Positions 1,793 through 16,732 of a DNA stretch of 64,000 nucleotides are shown in pieces (the first letter of the stretch is position 1; every line of letters starts with the position of its first letter). Origin of the DNA: Planctomycetota bacterium (GTDB lineage Bacteria; Planctomycetota; Planctomycetia; Pirellulales; PNKZ01); assembly GCA_018242585.1 (NCBI GenBank), contig JAFEBQ010000003.1, positions 1 through 64,000 of the forward strand, given 5' to 3'. A program made the position numbers and the translations under genes. The notes under the pieces were generated by a model. It had not been told where the DNA came from, did not search any database, and saw only the letters and a list, made by a program, of their open reading frames with translations.

Positions 1793-4700
1793 TCACGCCG
1801 GGGCAGGAGCGCGGCCGTTGCGGCGGAAGTCCTGGCCGTTGCGCTGGCCGTAACGCTGTTGCTGTTGCGTCGGCTTGGGCGGTTCGGCCAATAGTTGCAC
1901 GCTGCCGGGGCCGAGCAAATCGACCAGCCGCTCACGCATCTCGGGATGGAGTTCCACCTTGACCTTGTCCGAAACGCATTGCAGCCGGCTGCCGTCGGTC
2001 AGTTGAAACAGGAACTGCAGCTCGCACCGGCCCGGATAGCCGCGCAGGATTTCCAGCAATCGTTCCAACGTCGCCGCCGAGTGAACATTCTCGTCGACGC
2101 GCAGTCGAATGCCCCGCGTGAAGCGTTGCGGCAACTGATCGAGCGGGATTACTTCGTTGACGATGAAATTGGCGTCTTCGCTGCCGGGCCGCTTGTCGAT
2201 CACGCCGCGCAGCGCCACCACCGCCTCGGCCTGCACAAGCTCGCCAAATTGGGCGTACTGTTCGGGCCAGACGATCGTCCGCATCAGGCCCGCCGCGTCT
2301 TCCAAGTCGAACATGGCGTACTTACTCGGCTTGCCGGGCTGGGGATTCTTGGTGTGCGAGATTTTGATCGAGCCGATCATGCCGCCGAGCATGCACTCGG
2401 CCCGATTCGACAGCGCGGCCGCTTCGACCGTGGTGTGGGTGCAATAGGTCCGCAGGGTTTCCTCGTGCTCCGACAGCGGGTGGCTGCTGAGGTAAAAACC
2501 CAGCACCTCGCGCTCGAACAGGAGCTTTTGCTTCTCTTCCCACGGCGCGACGTTGGGCAGGGCCGAACTGGTGGCCGCGCCGGCGGCCAGCTCGTCATCG
2601 GCGTCGTCGAACAATCCCTTCTGGCCGCGCTTCTTGTCGGCCAGGGCGGCGGCGCCGGCTTGCAAGGCGCGCTCGACCGCGGCCAGCCACTGAGCCCGGT
2701 GCCCGCCGAGCCGGTCGAACGCGCCGGCTTTGACCAGCGACTCGATGGCCGTTTTGTTCACCAGACTGGCGTCGAGCCGGCCACAGAAGTCCGTCAGGTC
2801 GCGGAACGGGCCATTGGCGCGGCGCTCGGCCGCGATGGCTCGGGCCGCCCCGCCGCCGCAACCCTTGATGGCTGACAGGCCGAAGTAGATCTTGTTGTCC
2901 AGGACCGTGAACTCGAAGTCACACGTGTTCACGTCCGGCGCCATCACCTCGATGTTCATTCGCCGGCAATCTTCCAGGTGCTCGACCAACGAGTCCTTCC
3001 GCTTGAAGTTGCGGCCATCGATGTCGCCGCACAACAACGCCGCCATGAACTCGACCGGGTAATGGGCCTTGAGATAGGCCGTCATGTACGCGATCAGCGC
3101 GTAGGCCGTCGAGTGGCTCTTGTTGAAGCCGTAACCGGCGAACTTCTGGATCATGCCAAACAGTTCGGCCGCCTCGGCGCGCTTCAGTCCGTTGGCCACC
3201 GAACCGTCGAGGAATTGCCCCTCGAACTTGGCGATGTCCTTTTCTTTCTTCTTGCTGATCGCCTTGATGCAGCTATAGGCGCTCGACAGCTCGATGCCCC
3301 CCAGGCCGTTTAGAATCCGCATCACCTGTTCCTGGTAGACCATCACGCCGTGGGTCTCTTCCAGAACGTCCTTCATCACCGGGTGCTTGTACTCGGCCGC
3401 CTTGCGACCGTGCTTGACCTGGATGTAATCGTCGACCATGCCCCCTTCCAACGGGCCGGGCCGATACAGGGCGTTGGTGGCAATGATGTCGCGGAAATGG
3501 TCGGGCTTCATCCGCTGGAGCAGATCGCGAATGCCGCCGCTTTCGAGCTGGAAAATCCCTTTCGTCTCGCCGCGGCAGAGCAGGGCGAATGTCTCTTGAT
3601 CGTCGAGCGGGAACTTGTAGGGGTCAATTCGCACGCCGCGTGATTGTTCGATCAGATCGACGCTCTTAGCCAGGATGGTCAAGTTGCGCAGGCCCAGGAA
3701 GTCCATCTTCAGCAGGCCGGCCTTCTCGACGTCACCCATCGCCCACTGAGTAATGACTTCCTTCTTGTCTTGTACGTGCTGCAGCGGCACATACTCGACC
3801 AGCGGCCGATCGGCGATCACCACCGCCGCGGCGTGCGTGCCGACGTTGCGGGCCAGCCCCTCGATCTTCATGGCCAGATCGAGCAGCTCCTTCACCTCGC
3901 CGTCGCTGTCGTAGGCTTTGCGCAGGTCGGCGCTGAATTGTCCGGCGTACTTGGGTTCATCGCTCTTGACGAGCATGTGTCCAAGTTGGCCGTTGAGAAT
4001 CTCGGGCACGAGCGCAACGATGCCATCGACGCGAGGAATCGGCAGCCCCAGTGCGCGGCCGACGTCGCGAATGGCGGCTCGGGCCTTCAGGGTGCCGAAC
4101 GTGCCGATCTGGGCGACGTTCTCGGAGCCGTACTTTTCCTTGACGTAATTGATGACTTCTTCGCGCCGTTCCTGGCAAAAGTCGATATCGATATCGGGCG
4201 CTTCCAGACGGTTGATGTCAAGAAACCGCTCGAACAGCAAGTCGTACTTCAGCGGACAGACGTGGCTCAGGTAGAGCGCGAACGAAACGATCGCCCCCAC
4301 GCCCGATCCACGCGCCGTCGCCGGAATGCGCTTCTCTTTGGCAAAATTGACGAAGTCCCAGACGATCAAGAAGTAGTTCGGGAAGCCGAGCGTGTTGATG
4401 ACGTTCAGCTCGCGATCGAGCCGTTCGATAACCACCGGGGCCAGCTCGCCGTCGATGATCCGTTCGGGGTCGCCGGCATAGCGTTCCTTGAGCCCGGCAA
4501 CGCACAGCTCGCGCAGGTAGTCTCCCGCGCTTTTCCCCTCGGGCACCTTGAACGACGGGAAGTGTCGCTTGCCCAGTTCCAGGTCGATGTCGACCCGGTC
4601 GGCGATTTCCTGGCTGCGGGCGACGGCGTCCTCGAGTCCCGGGAACGCGTCATACATCGCCTCGGGGCCGCGCAGGTAGAACTGATCGCCTTCCATCCGC

Positions 4701-5425
4701 ATCCGGTTGGTGTCGGTGCGGAAGCGCCCCGTGTTGATACACAACATGATGTCCTGGGCTTCGGCGTCCGACTGGTTGACATAGTGCGAGTCGCTGGTGG
4801 CGACCAGCGGCAAGCCCATCCGTCGCGCCACGTCGACCGAGGCTTCGAGTGCCAAGCGCTGGATATCGAGCCCGTTGTTCTGGATTTCGATGAAGTAGCG
4901 GTCGCCGAACACCCGCTGGAACCAGGCGATGATCTCCTCGATCTGCTTGAAATCGAAGTCGGGACCGCCGCCGCGCAGCAGCGTGCGGCTCAGCTCGCCC
5001 GACACGCACCCGCTCAGGCAGATGATTCCTTCGTTGTACTGTTCGAGCAGCTCGCGATCGATGCGCGGCTTGCGATAGAACCCTTCCAGGTACGCCTTCG
5101 AGGCCATCTGGATCAGGTTCTTGAAGCCGGTCTTGTTCTGGGCCAACAGGGTCAGGTGGTAACTGCTCTCCTGGTTGCCGCTGGGATCGTGTTTGCTGGT
5201 CCGGCTGCCCGGCGCGACGTAGGCCTCGTAACCCAGGATCGGGTTGATGCCTTTCTCTTTGGCCTTTTGATAGAACTCGAGCGCGCCGTACAAGTTGCCG
5301 TGATCGGTCAACGCCAGCGCGTTCATCCCCTCGGCTTTGGCCTTTTTTACCAAGGCGTCGATCGGGCTGGCGCCGTCCAACAGGCTGTAATGACTATGGC
5401 AATGCAGGTGAACGAACGAGCGCAT
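1793..5425 (-). CDS. dnaE: DNA polymerase III subunit alpha
   Basis: A 1210-residue replicative polymerase. The N-terminal PHP domain is residues 1-290, with HLHCHSHYSLLDG at 7-19 and LTDHGN. The catalytic palm carries the two metal-binding Asp residues in PDIDIDF near residue 412 and the third in LKMDFLGL near 572. The finger and tau-binding regions follow, then a helix-hairpin-helix segment, and an OB fold near residues 960-1080. The last 35 residues are a Gln/Arg-rich, probably disordered tail. The length fits DnaE1-type enzymes. Residues close to the PHP metal site are retained, so residual phosphatase or exonuclease activity is possible but unproven. The gene stands alone, and the ATG at 5425 fits the family N-terminus. 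Confidence 0.97.
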   Translation of the reverse strand: MRSFVHLHCHSHYSLLDGASPIDALVKKAKAEGMNALALTDHGNLYGALEFYQKAKEKGINPILGYEAYVAPGSRTSKHDPSGNQESSYHLTLLAQNKTGFKNLIQMASKAYLEGFYRKPRIDRELLEQYNEGIICLSGCVSGELSRTLLRGGGPDFDFKQIEEIIAWFQRVFGDRYFIEIQNNGLDIQRLALEASVDVARRMGLPLVATSDSHYVNQSDAEAQDIMLCINTGRFRTDTNRMRMEGDQFYLRGPEAMYDAFPGLEDAVARSQEIADRVDIDLELGKRHFPSFKVPEGKSAGDYLRELCVAGLKERYAGDPERIIDGELAPVVIERLDRELNVINTLGFPNYFLIVWDFVNFAKEKRIPATARGSGVGAIVSFALYLSHVCPLKYDLLFERFLDINRLEAPDIDIDFCQERREEVINYVKEKYGSENVAQIGTFGTLKARAAIRDVGRALGLPIPRVDGIVALVPEILNGQLGHMLVKSDEPKYAGQFSADLRKAYDSDGEVKELLDLAMKIEGLARNVGTHAAAVVIADRPLVEYVPLQHVQDKKEVITQWAMGDVEKAGLLKMDFLGLRNLTILAKSVDLIEQSRGVRIDPYKFPLDDQETFALLCRGETKGIFQLESGGIRDLLQRMKPDHFRDIIATNALYRPGPLEGGMVDDYIQVKHGRKAAEYKHPVMKDVLEETHGVMVYQEQVMRILNGLGGIELSSAYSCIKAISKKKEKDIAKFEGQFLDGSVANGLKRAEAAELFGMIQKFAGYGFNKSHSTAYALIAYMTAYLKAHYPVEFMAALLCGDIDGRNFKRKDSLVEHLEDCRRMNIEVMAPDVNTCDFEFTVLDNKIYFGLSAIKGCGGGAARAIAAERRANGPFRDLTDFCGRLDASLVNKTAIESLVKAGAFDRLGGHRAQWLAAVERALQAGAAALADKKRGQKGLFDDADDELAAGAATSSALPNVAPWEEKQKLLFEREVLGFYLSSHPLSEHEETLRTYCTHTTVEAAALSNRAECMLGGMIGSIKISHTKNPQPGKPSKYAMFDLEDAAGLMRTIVWPEQYAQFGELVQAEAVVALRGVIDKRPGSEDANFIVNEVIPLDQLPQRFTRGIRLRVDENVHSAATLERLLEILRGYPGRCELQFLFQLTDGSRLQCVSDKVKVELHPEMRERLVDLLGPGSVQLLAEPPKPTQQQQRYGQRNGQDFRRNGRAPAPA

Positions 5426-8161: not shown

Positions 8162-9031
8162 TCATTGCGGGATCACCAGCGTCATCCCCTCGCGCAGATC
8201 GTCCGGCACGCGCAGCAAGTCCCGGTTGGCTTCAAACAGCCGCTGCGCTTCGCGCGGGTCGCCGTAGAATTGCCGGGCAATGCCCGCCAGCGTGTCGCTC
8301 GCCCGCACCTGATAGGTGCGCAGTCCGCGATGCTCGGGCAGGCTCTGGGTCCAGACCGTTTCGCCCGGCGCGGCGTTCGTGGCGCTGGTCGCGCCGCTGT
8401 AGCGAGGCTCGGTCGTCATCAGTTGCGCCTGGGACGGCGGCAGGACGGTCGGCTCGTCGCCGCGCATCGGAATCACCAGGTCCATCCCCACGCGCACCTG
8501 GTTCGGGCTGCGAAGCGCGGCGCGATTGGCCTCGAAGATTTCCCGGTACCGACCGGCCGAGCCCAGGTACTGCTGGGCGATGCTTGACAGAGTCTCGCCT
8601 TCGCGCACGCGGTGCCGCAGATAGCCGACTGCGGCGGGCTGGTTGTCGCCGCCGTTGTACTCGAGCGACACCTTGGGCTGAATCGGCGCCAGGACCGGTT
8701 GCGGCGCGGCAAAGCTGTTGGGCATGGTGGCGTTGCTCGGCGCGGCAACAGCGGGGGCGACCTGCGCCGTCGGGGCCACCGGAGCCAGTGAGATCGGCCG
8801 GCGCTCGAGCGACGGCGTCGCCGGGCCGCTCAGTTCGATCGGGCCCGGCCAGGCGCTACCCGTAATCGGTCCGTTGGCCGCCGGGCCGGTCTGATCGCGC
8901 AGCGAGAACGTCGCCGGCGCAAAGGCCGGCAGCGACCCGGCCTGGTGGTCGGGCTTGCGGTTCAAGTACGCCGCCGCGGCGCCGCCCAGCAGAATCAGGA
9001 TGGCGAAGAAGGTTTTGGTGCGAAACGTCAT
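8162..9031 (-). CDS. Membrane-anchored protein with two LysM domains
   Basis: A 289-residue protein. Residues 5-22 form one membrane segment (FFAILILLGGAAAAYL). A Pro/Ala-rich linker to about residue 130 precedes two LysM domains: YLRHRVREGETLSSIAQQYL (about 133-182) and YQVRASDTLAGIARQFYG (about 240-288), each ending in the typical GM-x-LVIP. LysM binds N-acetylglucosamine-containing glycans, so a periplasmic, peptidoglycan-associated role is likely. It has no catalytic domain. The next minus-strand gene upstream of dprA's convergent partner (10564-11865) is also a LysM protein. Confidence 0.88.
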   Translation of the reverse strand: MTFRTKTFFAILILLGGAAAAYLNRKPDHQAGSLPAFAPATFSLRDQTGPAANGPITGSAWPGPIELSGPATPSLERRPISLAPVAPTAQVAPAVAAPSNATMPNSFAAPQPVLAPIQPKVSLEYNGGDNQPAAVGYLRHRVREGETLSSIAQQYLGSAGRYREIFEANRAALRSPNQVRVGMDLVIPMRGDEPTVLPPSQAQLMTTEPRYSGATSATNAAPGETVWTQSLPEHRGLRTYQVRASDTLAGIARQFYGDPREAQRLFEANRDLLRVPDDLREGMTLVIPQ

Positions 9032-10563: not shown

Positions 10564-11865
10564 TCACTTCCAAATAATCACATGCGAGCCGACGCTGACG
10601 ATGTTGTAGACGTCGTTGATGTCGGTCGCGCTCAGGCGAATCGAGCCCCGCGTGTCGATCGTTCCGTTCACCGTGGTCGCCGAGCCGTGAATCGACAGCT
10701 TTTGTCCCAGGTCGAGCATCTGCACGCCCAGCGGATTGGACGGATCGTCGGGGCCGATCACTTGCCCGTTGGGTCCTTGGTAGGTCGGCTTGGCCACTTT
10801 GCTCTGCACTTGAAACTCGCCATCGGCGATCGGCTGGTCCTGCCCCAGGTAGATCGGAAAGCGGCCGGCGTACATGTGGTGCAGGAACAACGTCAACTCG
10901 TGCCGTTGCAGGTCGATGAGCACGTCGAACGGACCGTGGACGACCTTCAACGTGTCGCCGGGGCGCAGGGCGTTGGGGTCGGCAATGCCGTTGATGTTGG
11001 CCAGCAACTGGGCTGGCACTTCGTAGGTCGTGGCGATCTTGTCCAGCGTGTCGCCGGGCTGCACCACGTAAGCCGGCGCGAGCACGTGCTGCCGCGAGTA
11101 GATCACCGAACCGGCCAGTTGATCGAGCAGGTTCAGCAACCGGTCTCGATCTCCGGCCGACAACCGCGAGTCCGTGACCCATTTCGACAAATCGAGCAAC
11201 ACCTCGTCAAGCTTGCCGGCTTGCAACTGTTGTTGGCTGGTGGCCCAGGCCGTGGCGAACTCGGCGTGGGCGTCCGTGGACGAAGTGTCGGTCGTCGTCG
11301 AGTTGGTCGCCGTCGCCGTGCTGGCGTAGGTGTCTCCCAGCGGTGAAGCCGGCGGAGTCGCCGGCATGGTCGGCTCGCTGGACGACGCCGGTGTCGCCGT
11401 AGCCGCAGTCGACGTGGCCAACACAGTCGGCGCGCCGGTCCCGGTTGGCGAGCTGGTCGAATTGTTCGTCGCGCCTGCCGCGGCAAACGGATCGGTCGTC
11501 GACGAGATGCTGGTCCCCAGATTATTGCCGCTCGGGCCGGTCGAAGCTGTGGCGGCGTTGGGCGCGGCGGAAGTGGCCGCCGTGGCGGGTTCGTTCGGAA
11601 CGGTGGGCCAACTCGTCGTCGAACCCTGGGCATCCTGCGACGACGTATCGTTCGTCGCCGGCGTGCTGACCGACAATACCTTTGGCGCGGCCGGCGCGGC
11701 GACAGGTGCGCTCGCCGCCGAGGGCATTTCCACGCTAGGGGCCACGCCCCACACGGTGGCTTCGGCGGGCGGGTGCGAATCGCTGGGGCCGGTCAGAACC
11801 ACGTAGGCCCCATAGCCTACGGCCGACAACACGATTGCCATGAACAGCGTTTTGATCGTAGTCAC
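10564..11865 (-). CDS. LysM / YkuD-fold L,D-transpeptidase-like protein with Cys-to-Ser active site
   Basis: A 433-residue protein from a GTG start chosen because AAGGAGG lies 8 bases upstream; the longer open frame has no such site. Residues 4-22 are a membrane anchor, followed by a long Ala/Thr/Ser/Pro-rich linker to about 200. LysM spans about 265-310 (YVVQPGDTLDKIATTYEVP) and a YkuD-like domain about 315-433. The conserved His is at 393 (IHGSATT), but the catalytic motif normally S-x-G-C-x-R reads DTRGSIRLS, with Ser at 408 encoded by TCG (10642-10644). Family members crosslink peptidoglycan through this Cys. This one may be inactive, use Ser, or only bind the wall. Confidence 0.85.
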   Translation of the reverse strand: MTTIKTLFMAIVLSAVGYGAYVVLTGPSDSHPPAEATVWGVAPSVEMPSAASAPVAAPAAPKVLSVSTPATNDTSSQDAQGSTTSWPTVPNEPATAATSAAPNAATASTGPSGNNLGTSISSTTDPFAAAGATNNSTSSPTGTGAPTVLATSTAATATPASSSEPTMPATPPASPLGDTYASTATATNSTTTDTSSTDAHAEFATAWATSQQQLQAGKLDEVLLDLSKWVTDSRLSAGDRDRLLNLLDQLAGSVIYSRQHVLAPAYVVQPGDTLDKIATTYEVPAQLLANINGIADPNALRPGDTLKVVHGPFDVLIDLQRHELTLFLHHMYAGRFPIYLGQDQPIADGEFQVQSKVAKPTYQGPNGQVIGPDDPSNPLGVQMLDLGQKLSIHGSATTVNGTIDTRGSIRLSATDINDVYNIVSVGSHVIIWK

Positions 11866-11873
11866 CCGAGCGT

Positions 11874-11880
11874 CCTCCTT
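11874..11880 (-). promoter_or_regulatory. Strong ribosome-binding site that sets a GTG start
   Basis: On the minus strand the sequence reads AAGGAGG, 8 bases before the GTG at 11863-11865. It is one of the few canonical Shine-Dalgarno sites in this window, and it fixes the start of the L,D-transpeptidase-like gene 45 codons inside the longest open frame. Confidence 0.75.
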
Positions 11881-12171
11881 GACGATCAGACGGGCCAGCG
11901 AACCGGCTTGTAGCGCACCAAATGATGAACGAGCAGCACGATTCGCGTTGTCGCGAACGGCGGCGGCGACACTTTTCGGCAGCCTAAACGACGGGATCAT
12001 ACCGTAGGCTGCCCAGTGTGGCTACGCGAGTTATGGCGATCGTGGCGGGCAGGGTCAAAGCGCATCGGCCGTCCCAGGCCGCCAGCCCCCAATCGACCCC
12101 CTTGTCACACCGGCGGCTGCCAGCAATGCTGGCGGTTTCGTCACGGTTCACTTTCCTTGGCCGAGTTGTCG

Positions 12172-15562: not shown

Positions 15563-15691
15563 CCCCTCTTCCTCCGCCGTTCATGGCGAGATTTTAAGAC
15601 GTTTCGCCCGTTGCTGGTGGCAGTCTGGCCGCGAGCCCCTAGAATTCAGTTAGCGAGCGTTTCCTCCCCTCGGGCCAGGTGGAGATCAATC

Positions 15692-16732
15692 ATGTCGCGC
15701 TACTTTGTCATATCGCGCTGCCGGTGGCTGGCGTGGGTTGCAGTGTTCGTGGGCGTCTTTGCCTGGGCTGGGTCGGCATCGGCCCAGATCGGCGGCTCGA
15801 GCACCTGGCTCGACAACTACGTGCGGCCGCAGTTGGCCTGGCTGTCGGTGAACGGCGCGTTCGGCTCGCCGGCGCCAATGCAGGGGGCGTATCCAGCAAT
15901 GGCCGGGTACGGCGGCGCGATGGGCTATGGCGCGACCGGCGCTGGATACATGCCGGGCATGGGCTTCGCGCCGGGCGTTGGCGCGATGGCCGTCGGCTAT
16001 GGACCGCTGGGCATCTACGGCGGGCTCGGCTCGTACGCCGTGCCGGGCATGTACACGCCGGGGGGCTACTACGGTGGACTGGGTAACGGCGGCATGGGGT
16101 ATGGTGGCGGATTCGTGTCGCCGTATCTCGCCGGCTATGGCATGCCCGGCTACGGCGCCATTGCCGCGCCGGGAATGATGGCCGGCGTCGGTTACGCGCC
16201 TTACTCCTTTGGGCGCTTTCACGGGTACGGCTTCGGCGGCTGGCCGGGCTATGGTGCGTGGTCGCCGTATGGAATGGGGGCGGGATACGGCTATGGCGGT
16301 TATGGTCTAGGTGGCTACGGCCTAGGTGGTTACGGGCTCGGTGGCTATGGGGCGGGCGGCTACGGCTTGGCCGGCTACGCGGGAAGCCCGTGGTCGTACA
16401 GCATGTTCGGCAGCTTCCCTTACGCCGGCTTTGGCACGGCCGGAGCGCTGGGCTATTCGTCGGCGCTCTATGGGCAGCAAGTTCGTCAGACGCAGGCCAT
16501 CTATCAACTGCAACAGCAGGCGATTCTCTCGGAGTTGCAACAAGCGCAAGTGCGGCTCAACCAACTCGACGCGCAGCGCGACGGCGTGTTGAACCAGTAT
16601 CTGAACATGACCGGCGAGAATCGCGCCAAGTTCCGCACGGCGCTGCGGGCGGCGTACGACAAGCTGCCGGCCGCGCAACAAGCCGCCTGGAACGCCGACG
16701 CCACAGTGCAGCGGATTCTGCAAGAGCGCTAA
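15692..16732 (+). CDS. Secreted Gly/Tyr-rich low-complexity protein with C-terminal helix
   Basis: A 346-residue protein from the ATG at 15692, preceded by an AGGTGGAG ribosome site. A signal peptide covers 1-34 (cleavage after SASA). Residues 60-250 are dominated by Gly, Tyr, Ala and Pro. They include a short tandem run of GGYGLGGYGL units near 205-235. Residues 265-346 change to a Gln-rich, probably coiled-coil segment (QTQAIYQLQQQAILSELQQA). Such proteins are often surface or matrix components; no enzymatic domain is visible and the function is unknown. Confidence 0.8.
   Translation: MSRYFVISRCRWLAWVAVFVGVFAWAGSASAQIGGSSTWLDNYVRPQLAWLSVNGAFGSPAPMQGAYPAMAGYGGAMGYGATGAGYMPGMGFAPGVGAMAVGYGPLGIYGGLGSYAVPGMYTPGGYYGGLGNGGMGYGGGFVSPYLAGYGMPGYGAIAAPGMMAGVGYAPYSFGRFHGYGFGGWPGYGAWSPYGMGAGYGYGGYGLGGYGLGGYGLGGYGAGGYGLAGYAGSPWSYSMFGSFPYAGFGTAGALGYSSALYGQQVRQTQAIYQLQQQAILSELQQAQVRLNQLDAQRDGVLNQYLNMTGENRAKFRTALRAAYDKLPAAQQAAWNADATVQRILQER

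Follow-up and report, generated by a model that had tools for sequence, protein, structure and literature searches.

It has long been asked if budding planctomycetes make peptidoglycan, by what route, and what use they make of it. The question is raised again by a locus encoding a protein with the domains of an L,D-transpeptidase and a serine at the place of the catalytic cysteine. The locus lies in the window, by which is meant the whole 64,000-nucleotide stretch of planctomycete DNA analysed here (contig JAFEBQ010000003.1, positions 1 to 64,000). An earlier note on this DNA had left the choice between a pseudoenzyme and a Ser variant. Sequence comparison indicates that the case is more general than that note saw, the window protein appearing to belong to a family, spread across a bacterial order, in which loss of the active site has recurred.

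Architecture and active site of the window protein

The LysM-YkuD protein gene occupies 10564..11865 on the reverse strand, as do all features of the protein given below, and encodes 433 amino acids from a GTG start at 11865, with a Shine-Dalgarno-like AAGGAGG (11874..11880) located 8 bases 5' of this codon. An alternative upstream ATG at 12000 likewise opens the LysM-YkuD frame; the GTG was preferred because a hydrophobic segment conserved among orthologues follows directly after it. This segment (approximately residues 6-25; 11791..11850; Kyte-Doolittle window mean 1.99) is predicted to form a single membrane span, and a hydrophobic N-terminal window of at least 1.4 was observed in 140 of the 145 orthologues in which the N-terminal region is present. 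It is followed by a low-complexity linker rich in A, T, S and P (residues 27-198; 11272..11787; 35, 34, 29 and 23 of 172 residues, respectively) and by a conserved helical region (approximately residues 202-255; 11101..11262) evident in an alignment of orthologues (A1, described below) and modelled as helices H2-15, H19-27 and H37-54, for which no Pfam family was named in most of 66 scanned members. The C-terminal part consists of a LysM domain (residues 266-308; 10942..11070; PF01476, 49.4 bits against a cut-off of 20.9), scoring above the curated Pfam cut-off for this glycan-binding family, and a YkuD domain (residues 315-431; 10573..10923; PF03734, 38 bits against a cut-off of 23.4) that was also recognized by its fold. 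The LysM domain and membrane anchor described in the earlier note were thus both recovered, the latter as a predicted span.

The active-site motif reads T-R-G-S-I-R, in which only the Cys of the usual [S/T]-x-G-C-x-[R/N] is missing. Its place is taken by Ser408, encoded by TCG at 10642..10644, whilst the conserved catalytic His is present as His393 (CAC, 10687..10689), both assignments resting on the sequence and on the orthologue alignment and agreeing with what the earlier note had read. The protein therefore has the YkuD domain and fold and the catalytic His of an L,D-transpeptidase, and lacks the nucleophilic Cys of [S/T]-x-G-C. There is no Cys anywhere in the 433-residue open frame, ruling out a relocated Cys in this protein. 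A single-base sequencing error or frameshift is unlikely since two changes would be needed to turn TCG into TGC or TGT, there is no break in the frame up to and including the conserved C-terminus, and Cys is absent at this place in many other genomes.

Genome context

The genome containing the window (5.57 Mb, 56 contigs, 99.9% complete) yielded this YkuD match alone, the search having found no second, intact YkuD elsewhere in it. One penicillin-binding protein (PBP) transpeptidase match was found together with MraY above the curated cut-off (241.8 bits), whilst a search for PF00912, the glycosyltransferase domain of class A PBPs, gave no match; absence of class A PBPs in Planctomyces has been reported previously (PMC8406291). 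Key peptidoglycan genes have thus been kept in a genome whose sole detected YkuD is without a nucleophile.

When 60 related loci were compared with the window, the only shared neighbour besides the gene and its antisense frame was an ORF at 1796-5425, found at 28% identity in 2 of the 60. Recurring neighbours among 61 loci (the window included, with some genomes present twice under different identifiers) were a rarA/mgsA-like gene (14 loci), an M3 peptidase (9) and two unnamed families (22 and 21). Within the window, a second LysM protein is encoded nearby at 8162-9031 on the reverse strand (PF01476, 54.8 bits); it has a hydrophobic N-terminus and matches the NCBIfam LysM model PRK11198 in two stretches, below cut-off. 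On the forward strand, 12546-13448 matches PF04476 (4-HFC-P synthase, 196.8 bits), in a planctomycete genome; we take this family to be linked to methanofuran synthesis. Also on the forward strand, 15611-16732 is an open frame that includes an extended Gly/Tyr-rich region.

Distribution of orthologues

Matches among named records were from planctomycetes, many of them Pirellulales, including the isolates Rhodopirellula europaea, Roseiconus nitratireducens and Bythopirellula polymerisocia, and the order referred to below was assigned to Pirellulales from these records. A search with PF03734 identified a YkuD protein in 35 of 57 genomes, the window genome included, with one in each. Thirty orthologues found with this model, and hence the less diverged part of the family, were used to build alignment and profile A1, which identified an orthologue in 369 of 396 genomes of the order, and in 248 of 252 when only genomes with completeness of 90% or more and contamination of no more than 5% were considered. 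The YkuD model alone overlooks many diverged copies (for example in G004, G012 and G014). Similarly, a search for related loci returned none with the single protein as query and 80 with A1. At an E value of 0.1, LysM was detected in 66 of 66 members of a further alignment, A2, and YkuD in 63 of 66. Most genomes had one match, with two in some genomes of family f15. One such second copy (L175, G020:C4) is more diverged and is without both active residues. A class-wide profile search gave matches in 189 of 297 genomes, those outside the order being confined to family f22, taken to be Planctomycetales, plus one in f25; among the genomes listed in this search, those of f21, f23 and f24 had no match. 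These searches indicate that an orthologue of the LysM-YkuD protein is near-universal in the order.

Residues at the catalytic positions

Residues at the two catalytic positions were counted in 149 representatives, approximately one per genus, drawn from 152 distinct sequences after removal of L065 and L162, which are cut at contig ends, and the second copy L175. In the first 30 orthologues the His and the Gly preceding the Cys place were invariant, with the Cys place itself occupied by C (16), S (7), T, F and Y (2 each) and W (1). Across the 149 representatives it was occupied by C in 56, S in 32, T in 12, A in 9, V in 8, H, R and G in 5 each, F in 4, Y, N and L in 3 each, W in 2 and M in 1, with a gap in the remaining one, so that 92 carry one of 13 different residues other than Cys. 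The His was kept in 105 and lost in 44, although in very diverged rows this column is alignment-dependent (in L072 it is L in one alignment and G in another). When both positions were considered together, 56 representatives had Cys and His, 49 His without Cys, 44 neither and none Cys without His, pointing to a nested order of loss in which Cys goes and His follows.

The earlier note had asked whether Ser is fixed among orthologues, and it is not, even within the window protein's own family f1, where seven genomes have S, S, C, Y, Y, M and L at this place; Ser as a fixed lineage trait is ruled out by this spread of residues. The note had also held that orthologues with Cys would count against its claim. 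Such orthologues exist, as counted above, yet the substitution in the window protein stands and is shown to be derived, since Cys was present in 39 of 40 outgroup genomes (39 of f22 and one of f25) and is therefore taken as ancestral. The His was present in all 40. The exception, L344 (G497), has Gly at the Cys place despite the presence of MraY, an instance of loss outside the order.

Cysteines were also observed at two neighbouring positions. A Cys at +2 (G-x-I/V/L-C) is present in 13 of the 149 representatives (L028, L049, L055, L056, L069, L092, L093, L094, L097, L103, L106, L111 and L118), belonging to families f17 and f2. All 13 sequences retain the His and lack the canonical Cys, and the +2 residue is possibly a relocated nucleophile. 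Of the 105 His-bearing representatives, 22 have a Cys two residues ahead of the His, and 21 of these 22 also have the catalytic Cys; the carriers are f15 representatives (for example L115, L119, L125 and L126) and mostly related, so that the count does not represent independent events. In representatives with the paired Cys, a disulfide across the active site is possible.

Recurrent loss and subsequent selection

Trees were inferred from 189 sequences of this single protein with the two active-site columns removed. Parsimony gave 13 (LG) or 15 (mixture) changes of Cys state and 12 or 11, respectively, of His state, whilst loss-only counting gave 18-19 losses of Cys and 12 of His; after rooting, the outgroup was not reported as one clade (L325 lay at the root), making the loss-only counts, though not the equal-cost counts, dependent on rooting. 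Seven independent pairs differed in Cys state on well-supported branches, and seven is the safer floor given the uncertainty of a single-protein tree. Taken together, these counts argue that Cys has been lost many times within the order.

For close pairs (YkuD pN at most 0.20, a choice that lowers values in every class), median YkuD dN/dS was 0.11 in the Cys+His class (148 pairs, outgroup included), 0.15 in the His-only class (19 pairs, range 0.07-0.30) and 0.10 in the class with neither residue (19 pairs, range 0.03-0.28), no pair of any class reaching 1. Values over distant pairs were saturated and were discarded. At a fixed identity of 0.4-0.5 in the helices and LysM, YkuD identity was 0.60 among 426 outgroup pairs; within the order it was 0.44 among 1776 Cys+His pairs, 0.42 among 848 His-only pairs and 0.31 among 810 pairs without either residue. 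Constraint thus already differs from that of the outgroup in Cys-bearing members of the order, drops further after both losses and persists. These data are indicative of purifying selection on the YkuD domain after loss of the Cys. Near-universal occurrence with recurrent Cys loss, and purifying selection afterwards, are both found, as expected of the order-wide pseudo-L,D-transpeptidase family that we propose.

Predicted structures

An AlphaFold2 model of residues 201-433 of the window protein had a mean pLDDT of 95.4 and a pTM of 0.91, its least certain part being the His/Ser loop (block means 78 and 86). The best Foldseek match was a YkuD structure (E 8.6e-11), and comparison with B. subtilis YkuD 4a1i gave a Z of 15.1 and an rmsd of 2.2 over 105 residues. 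The Bythopirellula polymerisocia protein, in which Arg and Val occupy the active places, was modelled with a mean pLDDT of 91.3 and a pTM of 0.88 and also matched YkuD structures first (E 2.6e-08). In both models, which were guided by input alignments containing many Cys-bearing relatives, the predicted YkuD fold is kept after loss of the Cys.

Peptidoglycan genes in the order

MraY was found above cut-off in 43 of 396 genomes of the order as against 38 of 40 outgroup genomes, and the PBP transpeptidase domain above cut-off in 51 of 396, six of these being weak PF00905 matches (best 25-36 bits) that were not counted as markers. Representatives with MraY or a strong PBP match (39) comprised 11 with Cys and His, 22 with His only and 6 with neither, and those without these markers (110) comprised 45, 27 and 38, respectively. 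The 149 representatives consequently did not reveal a genome-by-genome coupling of Cys loss with MraY/PBP loss, the trend being if anything the reverse, and a tree-aware test had 7 usable pairs only, with an identical marker state within most. Lack of peptidoglycan genes in many planctomycetes has been published (PMC8567305), one study called MraY likely present in all genomes compared (PMC5147048), and the mur, mraY and pbp2 genes of Planctopirus limnophila are reported to be dispensable (PMC10632474). Absent markers do not prove absent peptidoglycan, since the sugars and DAP of this polymer were detected in Rhodopirellula baltica (PMC4432640).

Discussion

The window protein is very probably not a transpeptidase. 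The explanation that we favour, and consider probable, is that a former LysM-L,D-transpeptidase has been retained, without catalysis, as a glycan-binding tether between membrane and wall, the tether role being its less certain part. The head domain would lie in the periplasm, where LysM would grip a glycan that contains GlcNAc, whilst the inactive YkuD cleft would offer either a stem-peptide pocket or a protein surface, such that the protein would tether or position the inner membrane against the wall without forming 3-3 crosslinks. This interpretation is supported by the absence of Cys from the protein and of another YkuD from the genome, by the recurrent loss, by purifying selection and by retention of the fold. 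Counting against it, Cys and His are both present in 56 of 149 representatives, so that some members may still depend on catalysis, YkuD is less constrained once both residues have gone (identity 0.31 as against 0.44) and most genomes of the order show neither MraY nor PBP, leaving the LysM ligand there uncertain.

Ser408 and His393 might instead form a working serine L,D-transpeptidase, carboxypeptidase or beta-lactam-reactive enzyme, in line with the intact His and remaining motif, with Ser being the commonest substitute (32 of 92) and with a report of serine-dependent beta-lactam turnover by a YafK protein (PMC13400389). We consider this quite unlikely because the residue varies even inside f1, a close pair (L055 and L056, dS 0.24) has His and Asn at the Cys place, and Ser is also found in rows without His (for example L079 and L149). 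Moreover, the serine of the Legionella YafK protein sits elsewhere (Ser132, not Cys174; PMC13400389), and LdtMt2 C354S gave no product and, in earlier reports cited with that result, did not bind several penems and carbapenems covalently (PMC11410929). Of the two options offered by the earlier note, the order-wide loss of Cys thus favours the pseudoenzyme, whilst drift of the residue among 13 substitutes speaks against the Ser variant. That the family is enzymatic through other residues, such as the Cys at +2, or on a non-peptidoglycan substrate appears highly improbable; the 13 +2-Cys representatives and the presence of Cys and His in 45 of 110 representatives without MraY/PBP markers are in keeping with such activity, but a thiol route is impossible for a window protein that has no Cys.

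It is also unlikely that the LysM part is what matters and YkuD is a neutral leftover being lost. YkuD does diverge faster than the helices and LysM once both active residues have gone, and the profile match stops short of the YkuD end in 4 of 57 rows of the diverged search (for example G175, G108, G234 and G056). Neutrality is however difficult to reconcile with dN/dS far under 1 in all 19 neither-residue and all 19 His-only pairs, with conservation of at least 85% at GPF, YAG, D414, S426 and other YkuD positions in the neither-residue class and with the fold retained in the Bythopirellula polymerisocia model. A regulatory pseudoenzyme, in which the dead domain binds and steers another wall enzyme, the single PBP for instance, through a contact that includes His393, would account for retention of His in all 49 His-without-Cys representatives (by definition of that class) and in 105 of 149 overall, and MraY and one PBP domain are available in the window genome. 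This too we regard as improbable, as the His may be structural and 44 representatives are without it, there is no shared neighbour beyond the one ORF in 2 of 60 loci and most genomes of the order are without a PBP match (51 of 396 have one).

For the order as a whole we suggest, speculatively, that a protein once crosslinking peptidoglycan now serves as receptor or tether for an envelope polymer that is reduced or of another kind. On this view the active site was erased many times, and in some lineages was perhaps remade (the +2 Cys) or perhaps locked by a disulfide. A protein surviving nearly everywhere with its crosslinking site erased provides a handle on what has replaced crosslinking, and the family offers a natural series of stages of active-site loss, Cys first and His after. 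It also warns that the domain alone is no ground for naming such proteins L,D-transpeptidases. Among titles returned by a literature search there was no paper on a natural YkuD pseudoenzyme family, a search for YkuD/ErfK in planctomycetes returned no paper, and the accessible text of an L,D-transpeptidase review (PMC12729407) contains no mention of 'planctomyc'.

Among known systems, B. subtilis YkuD (1y7m, 4a1i, 3zqd) similarly has LysM followed by the same fold, and phmmer matched the window protein to 2mtz across LysM and YkuD (E 0.007). It differs in having Cys in its K-G-C-I-R motif, where the window protein has Ser, and in lacking the membrane segment, long linker and extra helices. The outgroup f22 orthologues, found by the same profile, share the helices-LysM-YkuD arrangement and differ in having near-invariant Cys and His (39 and 40 of 40, respectively, one of the 40 being from f25) and MraY in 38 of 40 genomes. 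Legionella Lpg1514, of the YafK family, belongs to the YkuD superfamily and does not need its canonical Cys for the measured activity, but it has kept that Cys and its active Ser132 lies at another position (PMC13400389); no YafK-named model was listed for the window in the NCBIfam scan. M. tuberculosis LdtMt2 C354S (PDB 8pxy) has the same fold (Z 13.9) and the same Cys-to-Ser change, although it is a laboratory mutant of an active enzyme with no LysM in the title of its PDB entry, whereas the change in the window protein is a natural one and many different residues stand at that place in its relatives. This mutant forms no product, yet was crystallised with its natural substrate (PMC11410929), and by analogy its behaviour fits a window protein in which catalysis has been lost and binding retained.
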